DNA from: Occultella kanbiaonis
GTDB lineage: Bacteria > Actinomycetota > Actinomycetes > Actinomycetales > Beutenbergiaceae
Direction of reading: 5' to 3'
Assembly (NCBI RefSeq): GCF_009708215.1
Contig: NZ_CP046175.1
Span: 3,534,001-3,598,000 of the forward strand
DNA: 64,000 nt
Shown: piece by piece, positions 29,202-63,712 of the stretch
Numbering within the stretch: position 1 is the stretch's first letter
Layout of the letters: every line of letters begins with the position of its first letter
Made by a program: the position numbers and the translations under genes
Notes under the pieces: model-generated
Told to the model about the DNA's origin: nothing
Seen by the model: the letters and a program-made list of their open reading frames with translations, nothing else
The model's database searches: none

Positions 29202-29744
29202 ATGACCACCACTCTCACCACCCTCAGCGGGAACCCGCGACGGGGCTCTCGCACTCTCGCCGTGGCCGAGGCCGCCGCCACCCGGATCGTCGGTCTGGTC
29301 GGTGGGTCCGCCCAGGTCGACGGCCGCGTGATCGAGCTCGCCGATCTCGCCGGGCAGTTGTTCGCACCGGAGCACCCCGAGGCGGACGCGGCGCTGGACC
29401 GGGTTGCCGGTTCAGACGTCCTCGTCGTGGCGACTCCGGTCTACAAGGCGAGCTACACCGGACTGCTCAAGTCCTTCCTCGACCTCTACGGCGCGAACGG
29501 GTTGCGCGGGGTCGTCGCCCTGCCCGTCGTGGTCAGCGGCAACCCGGCCCACCTGCTCTCCACCGACATCCACCTGCGGTCGCTGTTGGTGGAGCTCGGC
29601 GCGAGCGTCCCCACCCGCGGGCTCGGGGTGGTGGAGTCGCAGCTGGGCACGATCGAGGACGTCCTGGACGCCTGGTTCGCCGACCACGGCGGGCTCCTGC
29701 GTGGCGCGGTCACCGCCCGGGCGGGCGCGGGGGCGGCGGCATGA
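29202..29744 (+). CDS. NAD(P)H-dependent FMN reductase
   Basis: A 180-residue flavodoxin-fold reductase. TTLSGNPRRGSRT is the phosphate-binding loop, VATPVYKASYTGLLKSFLDLYGANGL the flavin-contacting stretch, then PVVVSGNPAHLLSTDIHLR. Close in style to MsuE/SsuE, which feed FMNH2 to sulfonate monooxygenases. Overlaps the next flavin reductase gene by four bases. Divergent from the lipase gene. Confidence 0.9.
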   Translation: MTTTLTTLSGNPRRGSRTLAVAEAAATRIVGLVGGSAQVDGRVIELADLAGQLFAPEHPEADAALDRVAGSDVLVVATPVYKASYTGLLKSFLDLYGANGLRGVVALPVVVSGNPAHLLSTDIHLRSLLVELGASVPTRGLGVVESQLGTIEDVLDAWFADHGGLLRGAVTARAGAGAAA

Positions 29745-30304
29745 GCGCCGAGACGCTGAGCGACCTGGAGCGCCTGCTCGCCGAGCAGGACGAGCCCCAG
29801 TTGAATGCCGACGAGTACAAACAGGTCTTCCGCCAGCACCCCGCCGGGGTCGCTGTCGTGACGTTCAACGGTTCGGGCACGGAGGCTGTCGACCCGGTGC
29901 CGGTCGGTTTCACCGCGACGTCGGTCATCTCGGTGTCCGCCGCTCCCCCGCTGCTCGCGTTCTCGATCGCATCGACGTCCTCGTCCTGGCCGGCGCTGAG
30001 CCAGACCGGCACGGTGGTCGTGAACTTCCTCGACGGCCCGTCCGCGCATCTGTCGACCACCTTCGCGACGAGTGGCATCGACCGGTTCGCCGATGCCCCG
30101 TGGCACCGGCTGAGCACCGGTGAACCCACCCTGACCGAGGCCTGCGCCCGCGTCCGGGGGCGCGTGGTGCAGCGGATCCCGGCCGGCGACAGCTACCTGG
30201 TCACCCTGCGGGCACTCAGCGCCCAGATCCCCAGGACCGGCTCGCCGCTGGTCTACCACGACCGCAGCTACCACCAGATCGGCGGGCACAGCCGGCTGGC
30301 CTGA
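29741..30304 (+). CDS. flavin reductase, FMN-binding split-barrel family
   Basis: A 187-residue protein. After a 25-residue acidic helix it shows FRQHPAGVAVVTF, PVGFTATSVISVSAAPPLLAFSI, VVNFLDGPSAHLSTTFA and LVYHDRSYHQIG, typical of DIM6/NTAB-type flavin reductases that partner two-component monooxygenases. ATGA overlap with the FMN reductase shows translational coupling. Probably serves the luciferase-like monooxygenase encoded on the other strand nearby. Confidence 0.9.
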   Translation: MSAETLSDLERLLAEQDEPQLNADEYKQVFRQHPAGVAVVTFNGSGTEAVDPVPVGFTATSVISVSAAPPLLAFSIASTSSSWPALSQTGTVVVNFLDGPSAHLSTTFATSGIDRFADAPWHRLSTGEPTLTEACARVRGRVVQRIPAGDSYLVTLRALSAQIPRTGSPLVYHDRSYHQIGGHSRLA

Positions 30305-30344: not shown

Positions 30345-32204
30345 TCAGGACCAGTCCGGCAGGAACGCCTTCGTGGCGGCATCGATCGCGATCGAGTACG
30401 TCCAGTCGGTGCGCCGGGTGGACCCCCACGCCTGCCAGCCCTGCCGGTCACTGTGCGCGAGCACGGTGACGCCGTCCGGCACCCAGGGTCCGGCGATCGG
30501 CGCGAAGAACGGGATCGCCCCCACCGCGCCGATGAAGGTTGCCCAGCGCCGGGCGATCTGGCTGCGCTTCCACGGACCGAGGACCACCATCACCCGGCGG
30601 TGCTGCAGGTAGTTCGCCACCAGCTCGATCTCCCACGCGAAACCCTGACGGACCTCGAGGGGGGTCGCGCTGAGCACCACCGCCCGAGCCGTCTGCGCGT
30701 ACCGGGCCACGTGCTGCTGCCACTCGTCGTTGCTGAAGCTGGCCCGCGCCGCTCCGATCGGGGCGATCCGCGCGCCGGGCGGCGCGATCGCGATCACCGG
30801 CCCGGACATCGAGAGCTGCTGGACGAGCACCTCCTCGAACCGCACCTGGCGGAACAGGCTGAGTGCCCCGAACAGCCCTCGGCGTCGCAGCAGGCCCGGC
30901 AGCTTCAGCGAGTCCTCGTCGAAGCTGCGCAGGTACAGGTAGTGCGGGCGGGTGTCCTGGGCGAGGGCATCCGCCACCGAGGCCGCGCGGATCCGCCGCC
31001 CGAACTCGTCGAGGGCGACGAGCAGGGCGATGGCCACGAGTAGCAAGGGCACCAGCCAGATCCGCTGGTCGCCGGCGAAGGCCCGCGCGATCGGGTAGAG
31101 CGGCCCCGCGAGCGGCTCCCAGCGCCCGGAGAGCCCGGCCCCGGAGTCCACCGGCCAGCCACCGCTGGCGCCCGCATACCAGTTCAGCAGCACGAAGACG
31201 ACCAGGATCACCGGCAGCAGGCCGTACGCGATGGTGCTCAGGGCCATGCCGACGCCGCCCCGAACGCTGAGGCTGCCGAGCCGGGTGGGCCGCACGTCCT
31301 CCACCGGGTGCGGCGGGATGAGGCGGTACATCAGGGCGATGAGCCCGACCAGGACCGCGAGCGCGAGCAGCACGGCGAGCGCCGCAGAGGTGTCCCCGGC
31401 GATGACCGAGTTCAGTTCGACGAGGCCCAGGAAAGCGGCGAAGAACCAGACGACCATCCGGATCCGCCGCTTCCACCGGGCGCCCAGCACCACCCGGGTC
31501 AGGTCGTGGTACCGGGGTGAGGTCGAGCCGGACCGGTACCGGGGGCGGCGCGCGAACGCGATCAGCCGGAAGGGTCCGACGAAGATCACCCAGATGAACA
31601 CCACGAACACGATCGTCTGCACGAGCACGTCGCTGAGGTTGTAGGCGGGGGTGTTGACCCGGTTGTACCCGTCCGCGGCCAGGGTGTCCTGCAGGTCCAG
31701 GGCGAACGGCCCGATCCGGCCGGCGCACGCTCGCGGGTCGGCCTCGCACGGCATCCGCAGCTCGACGAGCGCGGTCGAGTCCTCCGCGCTGGTGATCCAC
31801 TGCGAGCGGAGCTCGGCGTCGCCACCGTTCCAGCGGACCCGCTCCTCGCCGTCGAGCACCTGGACCTCCGTGACCGGCCGGCCCGGGATCCCCCGCCACT
31901 CGGCCAGACCGATGGCTTCGTCGTCGTCGTCACAGACGGCGTACCACAGGGTCAGCTCCTCGCCCGCGCCGGGGCCCTGCCAGCGCCACTGCTGCGCGGT
32001 GCCGCAGCCGGGCGCGTCCCCGACGCTCTCGTCGACGGCGGAGGTGAGCAGGAACCAGTCGTCCCCGGGTGCCCACGGCGGGTCCCCGGCCGGAGCCGCG
32101 GAGGCCGACGGCGCACCGAACGCTCCGAGGAGCACGGCCACCAGGGTGGCGGCAAGGCCGAGCAGGACGCGCCGGGCCGGGCGCGCTGGGGCAAGCGACG
32201 TCAC
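30345..32204 (-). CDS. membrane protein with C-terminal TIR-like/RSF-motif cytoplasmic domain
   Basis: A 619-residue protein, third gene of a coupled cassette. Signal peptide at residues 12-35, an extracellular domain of about 150 residues with paired cysteines (PGCGTAQQW, PCEADPRACAG), then six or so membrane helices between about 180 and 400. The cytoplasmic domain begins HYLYLRSFDEDSLKLP and continues FEEVLVQQLSMSGPVIAIAPPGARIAPIGAAR, DEWQQHVARYAQTARAVVLSA, GFAWEIELVANYLQHRRVMVVLGPW. This pattern resembles TIR/SLOG-type Rossmannoid effectors, but I cannot name a family with certainty. Start GTG 32204 gives a GTGA overlap with the SLOG gene. Confidence 0.75.
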   Translation of the reverse strand: MTSLAPARPARRVLLGLAATLVAVLLGAFGAPSASAAPAGDPPWAPGDDWFLLTSAVDESVGDAPGCGTAQQWRWQGPGAGEELTLWYAVCDDDDEAIGLAEWRGIPGRPVTEVQVLDGEERVRWNGGDAELRSQWITSAEDSTALVELRMPCEADPRACAGRIGPFALDLQDTLAADGYNRVNTPAYNLSDVLVQTIVFVVFIWVIFVGPFRLIAFARRPRYRSGSTSPRYHDLTRVVLGARWKRRIRMVVWFFAAFLGLVELNSVIAGDTSAALAVLLALAVLVGLIALMYRLIPPHPVEDVRPTRLGSLSVRGGVGMALSTIAYGLLPVILVVFVLLNWYAGASGGWPVDSGAGLSGRWEPLAGPLYPIARAFAGDQRIWLVPLLLVAIALLVALDEFGRRIRAASVADALAQDTRPHYLYLRSFDEDSLKLPGLLRRRGLFGALSLFRQVRFEEVLVQQLSMSGPVIAIAPPGARIAPIGAARASFSNDEWQQHVARYAQTARAVVLSATPLEVRQGFAWEIELVANYLQHRRVMVVLGPWKRSQIARRWATFIGAVGAIPFFAPIAGPWVPDGVTVLAHSDRQGWQAWGSTRRTDWTYSIAIDAATKAFLPDWS

Positions 32205-32755
32205 GCCGGCCTCGCGTAGCCGTCCGGCCACACGACGGCGACCTCGATGCCGCCGGCGCGGGCGGCGTCGACGATCTGCGCCGTGCCGCCGATGCCGCGC
32301 TCGCGCTGCCCGTCCCAGACGGCGAGGAGCAGGTCGGCTCCCTCGAGCACGGCCAGCCCGGCCGCCAGATAGGCGTCCGGCGAGGGCTCGGGGTGGTCGA
32401 GCACGCGGACCGAGGCGGCCCGCGCCAGCAGGGCCCGGAACGGGGCCCGGTAGTCGGCCGGGAGGGTCTCGGCATAGCCGTCGGCGGGCAGCACCACGTC
32501 GAGCTGCAGGCCGAGCGACAGCGCGATCCCGGCCGCCAGCTGGTCGGCCCCCTCGGCCAGGCTGCTGACCAGATGGGCCGGCCCACCCGACCGGCCCGGC
32601 GGGCCATCAGCGTGGCCATCAGCGTGGCCGCCGACGGAGCCGTCGGCCTCGTCGACGGCGTACGGGACGAGCACGGCCCGCACGCCCCGTGCGATCACGT
32701 CCCGGGCGGCGTCGTCGTAGTTCCGGTGGCCCGTGACGGCGATCCTGGCGCTCAT
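32201..32755 (-). CDS. SLOG-family (Rossmannoid nucleotide-binding) protein
   Basis: A 184-residue protein. RIAVTGHRNYDD at the N-terminus, LVSSLAEGADQLAAGIALSLGLQLDVVLPADGYAE, a helix FRALLARAASVRVLDHP, and DLLLAVWDGQRERGIGGTAQIVDAARAGGIEVAVVW. These are the phosphate-binding and ligand motifs of the SLOG superfamily, predicted to sense or process nucleotide-derived signals in bacterial conflict systems. Histidine-rich insert (GGHADGHADG) between residues 40 and 50. Overlaps both neighbours by four bases. Confidence 0.85.
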   Translation of the reverse strand: MSARIAVTGHRNYDDAARDVIARGVRAVLVPYAVDEADGSVGGHADGHADGPPGRSGGPAHLVSSLAEGADQLAAGIALSLGLQLDVVLPADGYAETLPADYRAPFRALLARAASVRVLDHPEPSPDAYLAAGLAVLEGADLLLAVWDGQRERGIGGTAQIVDAARAGGIEVAVVWPDGYARPA

Positions 32756-33702
32756 CCGACCGACTCGTCCGGGGTTCGGCCCGGCTCGGCGGTGCGCAGC
32801 GACTGCCAGGTGGTCAGCTCGTCGGCGAGCACCGCCTCGGCACGCGCCACGAACGTGGTCCAGTCCGCCTCGGCGATCCCCTCGCGGGTCCAGGCGACCA
32901 GGGTGGCCAGGTGGCTGGCGGTGCGGCCGTAGATCTCGTGCGTCTTGCGGTGCTGGCGCATCTGGCTCCAGGCCCCGAACACTGCGGCGAGGGCACCGAA
33001 CACGCCGAGCAGGTCGAGGTCGATGATGTTGGCGGCCTTGAGCACGGCGGCGGCCAGACCCGCGGCCTCGGCGAGCAGCATCGCGAGGAACCAGCGGTCA
33101 GCGAGCACGCCGTGCCGGCGGCTCTTGCGGGCGTACCAGGTCATCTGTTCGACGATGCGCCCCGTGATGTACGCGTCCCGGCGCGTGGCGAAGTCGGCCT
33201 CGCGCAGGTCCGACATGGCACGGGTGACGTACTCGAGGTTCTGGCCGTGGGTGGCCAGCGTCACGCCCAGGTCGGCGATCTCGTCGTTCTGGGCCGCCAG
33301 GAACATCCGCCGCGCCCGGGGCCCGTCCAGGTCCGGGCCGAACGGAGCGCCCTGCACCGCGAAGCGCCAGCTGTCCGCCTTCGCCGACTCCGCCACGGAG
33401 CGGGCCCGCAGCCAGTGGGACTCGGAGTCCTTGGTGTTCAGGTACACGCGCAGCAGCAGACTGGCACCGAAGCAGACGGCACCGAGGACGGCGACGATGT
33501 CGGCACCGGAGCCCGGCAGCGGGATGGAGAACGTGCCGCAGAGGGCGGCCAGGACCAGCAGGGTGTAGTGCACCCGCATGCCGCGCACGAACGTCGTCTG
33601 TGACCTGACGGCCACGTCGTCGGCGGCGGCGACCACCCCCGAGAGGTCCTCGTCACGCAGGATGCCCGGCGGGCGCACGCTCGGCTCCGACCTCTGGCTC
33701 AT
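32752..33702 (-). CDS. SLATT-domain (DUF4231-like) two-helix membrane protein
   Basis: A 316-residue protein, first gene of the cassette. Two helix pairs are visible: RVHYTLLVLAALCGTFSIPLPG with IVAVLGAVCFGASLLLRVYL, and FLAMLLAEAAGLAAAVLKAANI with LLGVFGALAAVFGAW. Between them is the SLATT signature region HWLRARSVAESAKADSWRFAVQGAPF, plus a long helical stretch with YITGRIVEQMTWYARKSRRH. SLATT proteins associate with SLOG and nucleotide-second-messenger enzymes and are predicted pore-forming effectors. Starts 57 bases downstream of proB. Confidence 0.85.
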   Translation of the reverse strand: MSQRSEPSVRPPGILRDEDLSGVVAAADDVAVRSQTTFVRGMRVHYTLLVLAALCGTFSIPLPGSGADIVAVLGAVCFGASLLLRVYLNTKDSESHWLRARSVAESAKADSWRFAVQGAPFGPDLDGPRARRMFLAAQNDEIADLGVTLATHGQNLEYVTRAMSDLREADFATRRDAYITGRIVEQMTWYARKSRRHGVLADRWFLAMLLAEAAGLAAAVLKAANIIDLDLLGVFGALAAVFGAWSQMRQHRKTHEIYGRTASHLATLVAWTREGIAEADWTTFVARAEAVLADELTTWQSLRTAEPGRTPDESVG

Positions 33703-33759: not shown

Positions 33760-34911
33760 TCAGGTTCCGCGGTAGGGACGCACCTGCACCAGGTCGTCGC
33801 GGTGGACCACCTCGCGGGCGTTGCCGTCCCCGAACCGCTCCCGCAGCTGCACCGAGGTGGCACCCATCCGTTCGGGCAGCTCGTCGGCGGAGTAGGCGAC
33901 CAGTCCCCGGGCCACCACGGTGCCGTCCGCGGCGGCGATCTCCACCGGGTCCCCCGCCTCGAAGGTGCCCTCGACGCCGATCAGGCCGGCGGCGAGCAGG
34001 GACTTCTTCCCGACCGTGAGCGCGCGGACCGCGCCGTCGTCGATGATCAGCCGACCGCTGGTGTGGGCAGCGTGCGCCAGCCACAGGCGCCGCGTCTGGA
34101 TCCGGCGACCGGTGGCCGAGAACCAGGTGCCGACGTCCTCGCCGGCGAGCGCGGCGGCGGCGTTCGCGGCACTGGTCAGGATGACCGGCACACCGGAACC
34201 GACGGCGATCTGGGCGGCCTCGACCTTCGTCACCATGCCGCCGGTGCCCACGTGCGACCCCTTGGCGGTCAGCTCGATGCCCTCGAGATCCGCGGGCGAG
34301 TCCACGCGGGCGACCCTGCTCGAGCCGGGCCGGCTCGGCGGGCCGTCGTAGAGCGCGTCGACGTCCGAGAGCAGCAGCAGTCCGTCGGCGCGGACAAGAT
34401 GCGTGACCAGGGCCGCGAGGCGGTCGTTGTCGCCGAACCGGATCTCGTGGGTGGCGACGGCGTCGTTCTCGTTCACGATCGGGATCACGCCGAGCGCGAG
34501 CAGACGCACCAGGGCCCGCTGGGCGTTCCGGTAGTGGCTGCGCCGGATCACGTCCTCGACGGTCAGCAGGACCTGCCCCACGGTGCGCCGGTGCGCCGCG
34601 AAGGCCCGGGTGTAGTGCGCCATCAACAGGCCCTGGCCCACGCTCGCCGCCGCCTGTGCGGTGGCGAGGTCCTTCGGGCGGGAACTCAGTCCGAGCACGG
34701 TGAGCGCGGACGCGATCGCACCGGAGGAGACCAGGATCACCTGTCCGCCGGCCGCCACCCGGGCGGCGAGGACGTCGGTGAGCGCCCGCAGCCGCTCGAC
34801 GTCGAGTCGCCCGGCCTCATCGGTGAGCGACGACGACCCGACCTTCACCACGAGCCGCCGTGCCCGGGCGGGATCGGCGAACGCCGCGCGATCGGTGAGC
34901 TCCGCCGTCAT
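33760..34911 (-). CDS. proB: glutamate 5-kinase
   Basis: ATP-dependent first step of proline synthesis. The 383-residue protein has an amino-acid kinase domain ([68 protein letters not shown]) and a C-terminal PUA domain ([29 protein letters not shown]). ATG 34911 overlaps the obgE stop by four bases. The next gene downstream should be proA by synteny, but accessory genes intervene. Confidence 0.96.
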
Positions 34912-36404
34912 TCGTCGTCGTCGCGATCGGTCCACAGTTCGGCGCGGGCCGCGGCCTTGGCGTCCATCCGGCCGTGGAACTCCTCCCGCTTCTCGGCGCG
35001 GGTGGGCCTGCTGCGGTCCTCGAGGCGGAGGTCGGTGCCCCGCGGGGAGGCGAGCAGTTCGGGTCCGGTGAGCAGGGTCGGCTCCCAGTCGAACACGACG
35101 CCGCGGGGACCGTCGCCGATCACGACCTCATCACCGGCCACGGCGCCGGCCTTGAACAGGCCGTCCTCGACGCCGAGCCGGGCGAGCCGGTCCGCGAGGT
35201 ACCCGACGGCCTCGTCGTTCGCGAAGTCGGTCTGACGCACCCACCGCTCGGGCTTGTCGCCGCGGACCAGGTAGTAGACGTGGTCGCTCTGCCGGCGGGT
35301 CACCGTGAAGCCGGACTCGTTGACCGCGCGGGGGCGCAGCACTTTGCGGGTGGGCTCCGGGGCGGGAGCGGCGTCACGAGCCTGCTGCACGATCTCCGCG
35401 AGAGCGAACGACAGCGCCCGCAAGCCCTCGTGGGAGGCCGTCGAGATCTCGAACACGCGCAGTCCGCGAGCCTCGAGCTCGGGGCGGACCAGCTCAGCCA
35501 GGTCCCGCGCCTCTGGCACGTCGATCTTGTTCAGGACCACCAGCCGGGGTCGCTCGGTCAGCGGGGTCCGGCCGCCCTCGATGCCGACGTCGCCCGCGTA
35601 GGTGGCCAGTTCCGCCTCGATCACGTCGAGGTCGGTGATCGGGTCGCGGCCCGGGTCGAGGGTGGCGCAGTCGAGGACATGCACGATGACCGCGCAGCGC
35701 TCGATGTGCCGCAGGAACTCCAGGCCGAGGCCCTTGCCCTGGCTGGCGCCGGGGATCAGTCCGGGCACGTCGGCCATGGTGTAGCGGGCCTGGCCGGCCT
35801 GCACCACCCCGAGGTTCGGGACGAGGGTGGTGAACGGGTAGTCGGCGATCTTCGGCCGGGCGGCGGACATCGCGGCCACCAGGGAGGACTTGCCGGCGCT
35901 CGGGAACCCGACCAGGGCCACATCCGCGACGGTCTTGACCTCGAGGACGAGGTCCTCCTCCCAGCCCGGCTCACCGAGCAGCGCGAAGCCGGGGGCCTTG
36001 CGCTTCTGCGAGGAGAGCGCGGCGTTGCCGAGCCCGCCCTGACCGCCCCGGGCGGCCACGTACCGGGTGCCGGCGCCGACCAGATCGGCGAGCAGGACAC
36101 CGTTGGGGTTCTTCACGACGGTGCCGTCCGGCACGTACAGCACCAGGTCCTCGCCGCGCTTGCCGGTGCGCATGTCACCGGCGCCCTGGGTGCCGTTCTC
36201 GGCCCGCCGGTGCGGGGAGTGGTGGTAGTCGAGCAGGGTGGTGGTCTGCGGGTCCACCTCGAGGATCACGTCACCGCCGGAGCCACCGTTGGCGCCGTCG
36301 GGGCCGCCAAGAGGCTTGAACTTCTCCCGGTGCACGGAAGCGCAACCGTTGCCGCCGTCACCGCCGCGCGTGTGCAGGACCACACGGTCCACGAAGTTCG
36401 CCAT
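34908..36404 (-). CDS. obgE: Obg GTPase
   Basis: Essential ribosome-associated GTPase. The 498-residue protein has the glycine-rich Obg domain ([30 protein letters not shown]), G1 [15 protein letters not shown]2 [15 protein letters not shown]3 [11 protein letters not shown]4 NKIDVPEA, and the C-terminal OCT domain ([20 protein letters not shown]). A disordered charged tail ends in DRDDDE. Downstream of rpmA across a strong hairpin. Confidence 0.97.
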
Positions 36405-62698: not shown

Positions 62699-63712
62699 GT
62701 GGCTGCCTCGCGTGGGCTCCGACTCGACCAGCCGCCGACGATCGCGCCGGCCGGCGGCCAGGTGAAACGCGCGCTGCTCATCGGTGTCGACGACTACGAA
62801 CACACAGCCGGACTGACCGGTTGCGTCAACGACGTCACGGCCCTGCGACCGCTGCTGGCCCGCAACGCCGACGACAGCCCGAACTTCGAATGTCGCACCA
62901 TCCTCGGCCCACCCGAACGGGTCACCCGGCCTTCGGTCCTCGCCGCGCTCGCCGCGCTGTGCGCGCCGGGCGCCGACCTGGCCCTGCTGTACTTCGCCGG
63001 GCACGGCCGCAGCAGCGGTGAGGACGTCACGCTCGTGACGACCGATGGCATGGAGCACGCCTGGGGCGTGGGCTTCGCCGAGGTGATGGCGCTGGTGATG
63101 GCGTCGCCGGTGCCGGAGGTCCACGTCATCCTGGACTGCTGCTTCTCCGGCGCGGCCGGAGCGGTCCCGCAACTCGGCTCGTCGGCCGCGACCCTGCGTT
63201 CGGGCGTGGCGATCCTGACGGCGGGGCGCAGCGACCAGCTCGCGGCCGAGTCCGGTGGCCGCGGGCGGTTCTCGGTGATGCTCTGCGGTGCCCTCGACGG
63301 CGGAGCGGCCGACGTGCTGGGTCAGGTCACCGCCGCGGGCATGTACGCCTATCTGACCGAGTCGTTCGGGGCGTTCGACGCGCGGCCGATGCTCAAGGCG
63401 AACATCGACCGGCTTCGCGCCCTGCGGAGCACGCGACCCTGGATCACGCCGTCCGACCTGCGCCGCCTTCCCGTGCTCTTCGAGACCGAGGACGGGGCGC
63501 TGCGCCTCGATCCCGGGTACGAACCGACAGCCGGCCTCGGCGAGACCGGCAAGGAACACGACTTCGCCCTCCTGCAGCAGTGCCGGGATTCACGCCTCGT
63601 GGAGCCCGTCGACGAGGAGCACCTGTACTACGTCGCGATGCACTCGGGTACGTGCCGCCTCACGCCGCTGGGCCGGCACTACTGGCGGATGGCCGCCTCC
63701 GGGCGGATCTGA
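62699..63712 (+). CDS. caspase-like (C14) protease
   Basis: A 337-residue protein. ALLIGVDDYEHTAGLTGCVNDVTAL opens the caspase fold, catalytic His in ALLYFAGHGRSSGEDVTLV, catalytic Cys in VHVILDCCFSGAAGA, then RFSVMLCGALDGGAADVLGQVT. After about residue 250 comes LPVLFETEDGALRL and a C-terminal helical module (KEHDFALLQQCRDSRLVEPVDEEHLYYVAMHSGTCRLTPLGRHYWRMA) that resembles a winged-helix-like effector-association region. Several GTG starts are possible (62633, 62699, 62762). Followed at once by a small membrane protein gene, a layout seen in bacterial caspase-based conflict systems. Confidence 0.85.
   Translation: MAASRGLRLDQPPTIAPAGGQVKRALLIGVDDYEHTAGLTGCVNDVTALRPLLARNADDSPNFECRTILGPPERVTRPSVLAALAALCAPGADLALLYFAGHGRSSGEDVTLVTTDGMEHAWGVGFAEVMALVMASPVPEVHVILDCCFSGAAGAVPQLGSSAATLRSGVAILTAGRSDQLAAESGGRGRFSVMLCGALDGGAADVLGQVTAAGMYAYLTESFGAFDARPMLKANIDRLRALRSTRPWITPSDLRRLPVLFETEDGALRLDPGYEPTAGLGETGKEHDFALLQQCRDSRLVEPVDEEHLYYVAMHSGTCRLTPLGRHYWRMAASGRI

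Follow-up and report, generated by a model that had tools for sequence, protein, structure and literature searches.

The 64,000-nucleotide window analyzed here (the whole stretch under study), part of the 5.65-Mb chromosome of Occultella kanbiaonis, carries a cassette of three minus-strand genes that encode a SLATT protein, a SLOG-like protein, and a receptor-like membrane protein with an inner TIR/DNPH1-like domain (TIRL). The best explanation for the cassette, held with about as much confidence as doubt, is a variant, built on a membrane receptor, of the TIR/SLOG/SLATT nucleotide-signal systems, nucleotide-centric systems reportedly described by Burroughs et al. in 2015. This reading is supported by the overlapping genes, their conserved co-occurrence, the folds, an invariant glutamate, and purifying selection. 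Sequence and structural models underlie the union of outer and inner domains with membrane helices in one protein and the coupling of the genes; the cue, catalysis, the nature of the signal, its binding by SLOG, the opening of a pore, and a part in anti-phage or other conflict are those that the families lead one to expect. The cassette is presented as a candidate conflict system with a putative role in immunity.

Three overlapping genes and their products

An earlier reading made from the letters alone (the sequence-only reading) had described three minus-strand genes with four-base overlaps, and the coordinates confirm it (Table 1): the SLATT and SLOG-like genes overlap in ATGA (32755-32752), and the SLOG-like and TIRL genes in GTGA (32204-32201). 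The SLATT gene is on the same strand as proB and starts 57 bp beyond it, with a GGAGG stretch preceding the start. A promoter and terminator scan of the cassette found nothing and is uninformative at the G+C content of the window. All three genes have low dN/dS values against three congeners (SLATT, 0.07-0.09; TIRL, 0.15-0.25; SLOG-like, 0.28-0.38), so chance is excluded as their explanation, and SLATT is the most constrained gene of the cassette. The closest named relatives in the homologue search are three Occultella species (95, 93, and 85% identity in the TIRL protein).

Table 1. Features of the cassette and its edges, with positions in the window
Feature	Position	Strand	Residues	Description
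proB	33760..34935	-		Directly upstream of cassette, 5' edge of accessory slot; AA_kinase and PUA (Pfam)
SLATT protein	32752..33702	-	316 aa	SLATT_3 fused to SLATT_1; predicted membrane/pore effector
SLATT_3 domain	33178-33630	-	25-175	Pfam 104.4 bits; NCBIfam 126 bits
SLATT_1 domain	32806-33171	-	178-299	Pfam 90.5 bits; NCBIfam 89.4 bits
SLOG-like protein	32201..32755	-	184 aa	YpsA/YspA type; probable nucleotide sensor
TIRL protein	30345..32204	-	619 aa	Receptor-like membrane protein, from GTG start
TIRL outer domain	31665..32093	-	38-180	Mog1/PsbP/RseB-C/PknH-ectodomain-like fold (model); near-invariant Cys67, Cys91
TIRL membrane region	30990..31637	-	190-405	About 5 helices (model helices, hydropathy, K/R counts)
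Inner TIR/DNPH1-like domain	30348..30962	-	415-619	LRSFDED and conserved W524-E525
LRSFDED motif	30912-30932	-	425-431	Within inner domain
E525 codon	30630-30632	-	525	Inner domain, W524-E525
Flavin reductase gene	29741..30304	+		Faces cassette, 3' edge of slot; Flavin_Reduct 111 bits (Pfam)

The SLATT assignment made from sequence is borne out, as both domains exceed the curated cut-offs (26.3 bits for each in Pfam; 45 for SLATT_3 and 41 for SLATT_1 in NCBIfam). The protein has two hydrophobic regions, one per half, with hydropathy peaks at residues 44-87 and 205-244, in keeping with a two-helix membrane module. Pore formation by SLATT is a prediction in the literature (PMC12632851).

The second product had been called a SLOG protein, which stands at the level of the family and falls short for the window protein itself. 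YAcAr was matched in Pfam below threshold (E < 1; best E, 1.8e-4) by all seven aligned members, including the window protein, and YpsA by three of the seven (E < 1); the window protein scored 17 bits against the YAcAr cut-off of 28.2, and for this reason we use the name SLOG-like. YpsA (2nx2) was the top PDB match for the seven-member profile (E = 0.006), and the motifs GHR, LAEGAD, and GG[TS]A are present in all seven. The gene product is probably a nucleotide sensor. The alignment position after GG[TS]A, which we take to correspond to the Glu of LOG enzymes, is poorly conserved among 19 aligned SLOG rows (Asp in 10, Glu in 4, Thr in 1, and Gln in 4, the last all of Occultella type), which favors binding over cutting of a nucleotide. 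Occultella-type SLOG proteins have Gln after this motif (GGTG in the Streptomyces locus L065), compared with Glu or Asp in 14 of the 15 other aligned rows, as well as a low-complexity Gly/His/Asp-rich insertion of variable length that none of three aligned proteins from other family genera has.

The 619-residue third protein and its LRSFDED motif were found where the sequence-only reading had placed them; an alternative in-frame GTG nine codons upstream would give 628 residues. No Pfam, NCBIfam, or PADLOC family matched it at E <= 1, and a search of PDB sequences returned nothing at E <= 10. A match to a transporter or to an enzyme unrelated to signaling had been named as a refutation; no transporter or other named family matched, and for want of a match of any sort the idea of a transporter was dropped. 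Six PDB matches of the A3 profile (a designed TIM barrel with repeats, lactate oxidase, and others; best E, 5.5e-5) were judged to be chance, since the individual stretches score poorly. In the AlphaFold model (mean pLDDT, 69.5), structural matches of the outer domain include the envelope sensors MucB (8.9), PknH (8.8), RseB (8.7), and LpqN (6.0). The positive-inside pattern of Lys and Arg counts places the C terminus in the cytoplasm.

The description of the inner domain as TIR-like holds in part. The modeled domain has a DRHyd fold, like that of DNPH1 and nucleoside 2'-deoxyribosyltransferases (NDT), which are enzymes of nucleotide metabolism, and it may also resemble TIR domains; by the model, deoxyribonucleoside hydrolases are its closest structural relatives, and Pfam TIR families were matched by none of 20 inner-domain rows. 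In profile comparisons, hhalign against DRHyd gave a probability of 6%, yet above all 100 of 100 shuffles, and the inner-domain profile had no significant match to NDT, DRHyd, or TIR as single sequences or to the SLOG alignment, the proB control scoring lowest. Glu525, W495, R426, and F428 are identical in all 42 aligned rows, which fits the expectation for an active site. In the profile alignment, Glu525 lies in the helix after the strand of the VVLSA segment, at the position of the TIR catalytic Glu. No paper with the LRSF motif was found in the literature searched. A long open frame at L015 (genome G154) encodes a weaker homologue that matches TIRL residues 385-610 and by eye lacks the LRSF motif and the Trp-Glu pair; it is perhaps an inactive sensor version.

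Occurrence in the family and beyond

Among 24 genomes of the family, in which the 1.5 kb after proB were surveyed, the SLATT-SLOG-TIRL triad follows proB in five (four Occultella and G021), that is, in two genera at one locus. This conservation, whose absence had been named as a refutation, supports the earlier proposal of a candidate nucleotide-signal system. SLOG-TIRL without SLATT follows proB in two genomes (G015 and G013), TIRL lies behind other genes there in two more (G011 and G012), and the G017 slot holds SLATT-SLOG, where the contig ends directly. A TIRL protein match was found in 10 of the 24 genomes, one of which (G003) is a 57-residue stretch with a stop, and three lone TIRL paralogues (L027-L029) occupy other loci. 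The flavin reductase gene comes directly after proB in 6 genomes and varied other genes in 8, in agreement with the accessory insertion seen by the sequence-only reading.

The gene order is rplU-rpmA-obgE-proB-cassette, followed by two facing flavin-enzyme genes, a lipase gene, a gene without a Pfam match, and proA, which is labeled from its sequence (Aldedh family) and location. The view of the site as a defense island was not supported, as no mobile-element family occurs among the Pfam-scanned neighbors of the cassette, no composition break is present at the cassette in the window, and inheritance appears vertical. The dS values of the cassette genes are broadly similar to that of proB among congeners (the highest is SLOG against the most distant congener), and inheritance with the chromosome in the family is therefore the simplest account.

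The phylum-wide profile search, with up to 6 candidates scored per listed genome, found the inner domain in at least 2 of 396 genomes, and the Streptomyces search, with up to 10, in at least 19 of 246 genomes (at least 22 copies). Partners were counted by six-frame scanning at 27 Streptomyces loci, consisting of the 22 copies and 5 loci from a homologue search; three of the loci (L103, L105, and L106) are nearly identical to one another and do not count as independent. The membrane protein family 8xMP is found near 16 of the 27 (one a fragment, L108), SLOG within 2.5 kb of 10, both at 9, and SLATT near one (L113, SLATT_3 and SLATT_1 by Pfam). Genome-wide, the 19 genomes contain 29 SLOG and 18 8xMP matches, of which 8 and 14, respectively, have a TIRL domain within 2.6 kb (chance expectation, ~0.02 each); two further 8xMP copies (G838 and G968) adjoin a SLOG. 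No relevant paper on the 8xMP family was found in the literature. A mobilizable Streptomyces plasmid (L200) has the order TIRL-DUF4328-8xMP-SLOG. Parts of the triad are found together again in Streptomyces, there with another membrane protein as partner, and on a plasmid as well, and copies occur in five plasmid records. At 8 of the 27 loci (L095, L096, L097, L098, L099, L059, L062, and L064; cluster c2, with a Pfam check at the last three), a DUF4328-type membrane protein adjoins TIRL.

Other contexts are more varied. A caspase gene overlaps the SLOG gene near TIRL at L114, and at L061 TIRL is flanked by an nSTAND1-WD40 gene and by a cyclase gene whose N terminus is SLOG-like (by eye). The inner domain is fused to a C-terminal solute-binding domain (SBP_bac_5) at L101 and to sub-threshold TPR repeats at L032, and a TIR_2 gene stands 2.6 kb from TIRL at L056. 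These contexts suggest one conserved inner domain whose outer parts and membrane partners can be exchanged. A SLOG-SLATT_3/1 pair at L065 has no TIRL gene, and a true TIR_2 gene is found ~3 kb away, as though TIR might replace TIRL there. That pair (L065, 8539-14178) and a second one (L066, 9059-15845) have no TIRL gene called within ~8 kb; the former is close to a radical-SAM-like gene (sub-threshold), the latter by eye has a TIR_2 gene nearby, and the loci are perhaps of the FxsB/FxsC type.

SLATT relatives, all below 60% identity, were matched in 76 plasmid records, 41 of them typed as conjugative, and both plasmid neighborhoods examined (L201 and L202) contain a TIR gene and a TPR-S protein. 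No relative was present among 33 pattern matches in viral contigs, and phage records gave no match to the L064 inner domain.

Elsewhere in the window, a caspase-fold peptidase gene (62762-63712, plus strand; Peptidase_C14, 46 bits; PADLOC caspase) precedes a gene for a 467-residue product with hydrophobic N-terminal stretches (by eye); the peptidase shares 39% identity with the L114 caspase over 329 aligned positions. Outside the window on the same chromosome (G000:C1, ~4826200-4831500; L199, 2208-7486), two TIR-domain genes adjoin genes for an AAA_22 ATPase and a Mu-type transposase (Mu-transpos_C, rve), and this looks like a more mobile conflict locus than that of the cassette.

Proposed mechanism and competing explanations

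In the proposed mechanism, the Mog1/PsbP-like outer domain would sense a cue outside the membrane, such as damage, a phage-entry step, or a toxin, and the change would reach the TIR/DNPH1-like domain in the cytoplasm by way of the membrane helices. Using Glu525, this domain would split NAD+ or some other nucleotide at the N-glycosidic bond to yield a signal; the SLOG-like protein would bind the signal and gate the tandem SLATT protein, which would open a membrane leak and cause growth stop or cell death.

The TIR/SLOG/SLATT systems summarized in PMC9503650 and PMC7159879 likewise have SLATT as a predicted signal-gated membrane effector, SLOG as sensor, and, in the TIR-DrHyd-SLOG clade, a domain that is a possible signal maker; PMC9503650 reports this clade as well as TIR-SLATT pairs in phages. 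Here, in contrast, the candidate signal maker is without a Pfam model and is fused to helices and an outer sensor-like domain, and in its family the membrane effector can be exchanged for 8xMP. Thoeris also pairs a TIR-type signal maker (ThsB) with a SLOG sensor (ThsA, SIR2-SLOG), which binds a cyclic ADP-ribose isomer, and has a membrane effector in its TM-macro variant (PMC11204291). Unlike in Thoeris, no SIR2 or macro domain was found by Pfam in the cassette proteins, SLOG and effector are separate genes, and no PADLOC model, including those of ThsA and ThsB, matches the three proteins at E <= 1. The Klebsiella plasmid locus L202 (3950-7146) unites three roles in one cassette (a SLATT_3/SLATT_1 fusion, a ThsB-type TIR by Pfam, and TPR-S), and in the Agrobacterium plasmid locus L201 (1-4819) a TPR-S protein adjoins SLATT_3/1 and a TIR gene (ThsB-type by annotation) is close by; both differ in having an ordinary TIR gene, TPR-S in place of SLOG, and a site adjoining transposon genes. 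DRT10 also needs a SLATT for phage defense, but its signal maker is a reverse transcriptase with a noncoding RNA (PMC12632851). DNPH1 and NDT (DRHyd) share with the modeled inner domain the fold and the Glu position, although the inner domain alone has no significant sequence-profile match to them.

Several points weigh against the receptor reading: several relatives lack SLATT at the locus, 9 of the 27 Streptomyces TIRL loci are without any partner, the fold assignments of the TIRL protein rest on models of middling confidence, and the cassette at this locus looks resident rather than mobile. Because of this last point, the main rival is a resident envelope-stress module without an immune role, whose outer domain would monitor the envelope and whose inner domain, SLOG, and SLATT would adjust permeability or physiology. 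The likeness of the outer domain to envelope sensors, the fixed locus with vertical inheritance and low dN/dS, and the lack of mobile-element families among the scanned neighbors all suit it; however, the patchy presence of TIRL in the family and of the inner domain in Streptomyces, the swapping of the membrane partner and outer part, the plasmid copies, and the caspase, nSTAND, or TIR neighbors elsewhere look like conflict biology, and we consider such a module rather unlikely.

It is unlikely, too, that the inner domain binds nucleotides without catalysis and acts directly as a switch on the helices of its own protein, with SLOG and SLATT as a separate two-gene unit alongside. DNPH1 and NDT have an Asp near the nucleophile, for which the alignment offers no clear counterpart, TIRL also occurs alone, SLOG-SLATT pairs without it are found in two Streptomyces genomes, and the L015 homologue lacks the motif; but the four invariant residues are active-site-like, and TIRL is repeatedly adjacent to SLOG and to SLATT or 8xMP. 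An NAD+-depleting effector, in which the inner domain would kill by exhausting NAD+ and SLATT and SLOG would be regulators or immunity partners, agrees with a TIR/DNPH1-type fold that has Glu at the catalytic position and with the TIR NADase effectors described in PMC9503650. Coupling to a predicted pore and a SLOG sensor suits signaling better, and the strongest constraint in the cassette is on SLATT; this explanation appears improbable.

Tentatively, and with clear reservations, the receptor reading can be extended to a bacterial system laid out like Toll-type receptors: an outer sensor, helices, a TIR-like N-glycosidase, a SLOG reader, and an exchangeable SLATT or 8xMP executor, in a modular family where sensors (Mog1/PsbP-like here, solute-binding at L101, TPR-like at L032) and pores would be swapped around one inner domain. 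To our knowledge, the TIR-type signal makers described from bacteria are mostly soluble. A TIR/DNPH1-like domain that is coupled with a SLOG/pore pair and, across the membrane, with a sensor-like outer domain would make the path from a surface event to a nucleotide alarm addressable with three genes. The conserved inner domain is without a name in the Pfam, NCBIfam, and PADLOC searches, and the 8xMP family would through it be tied to nucleotide-signal loci. For Occultella, the cassette may be an alarm that senses trouble at the cell surface and opens the membrane.

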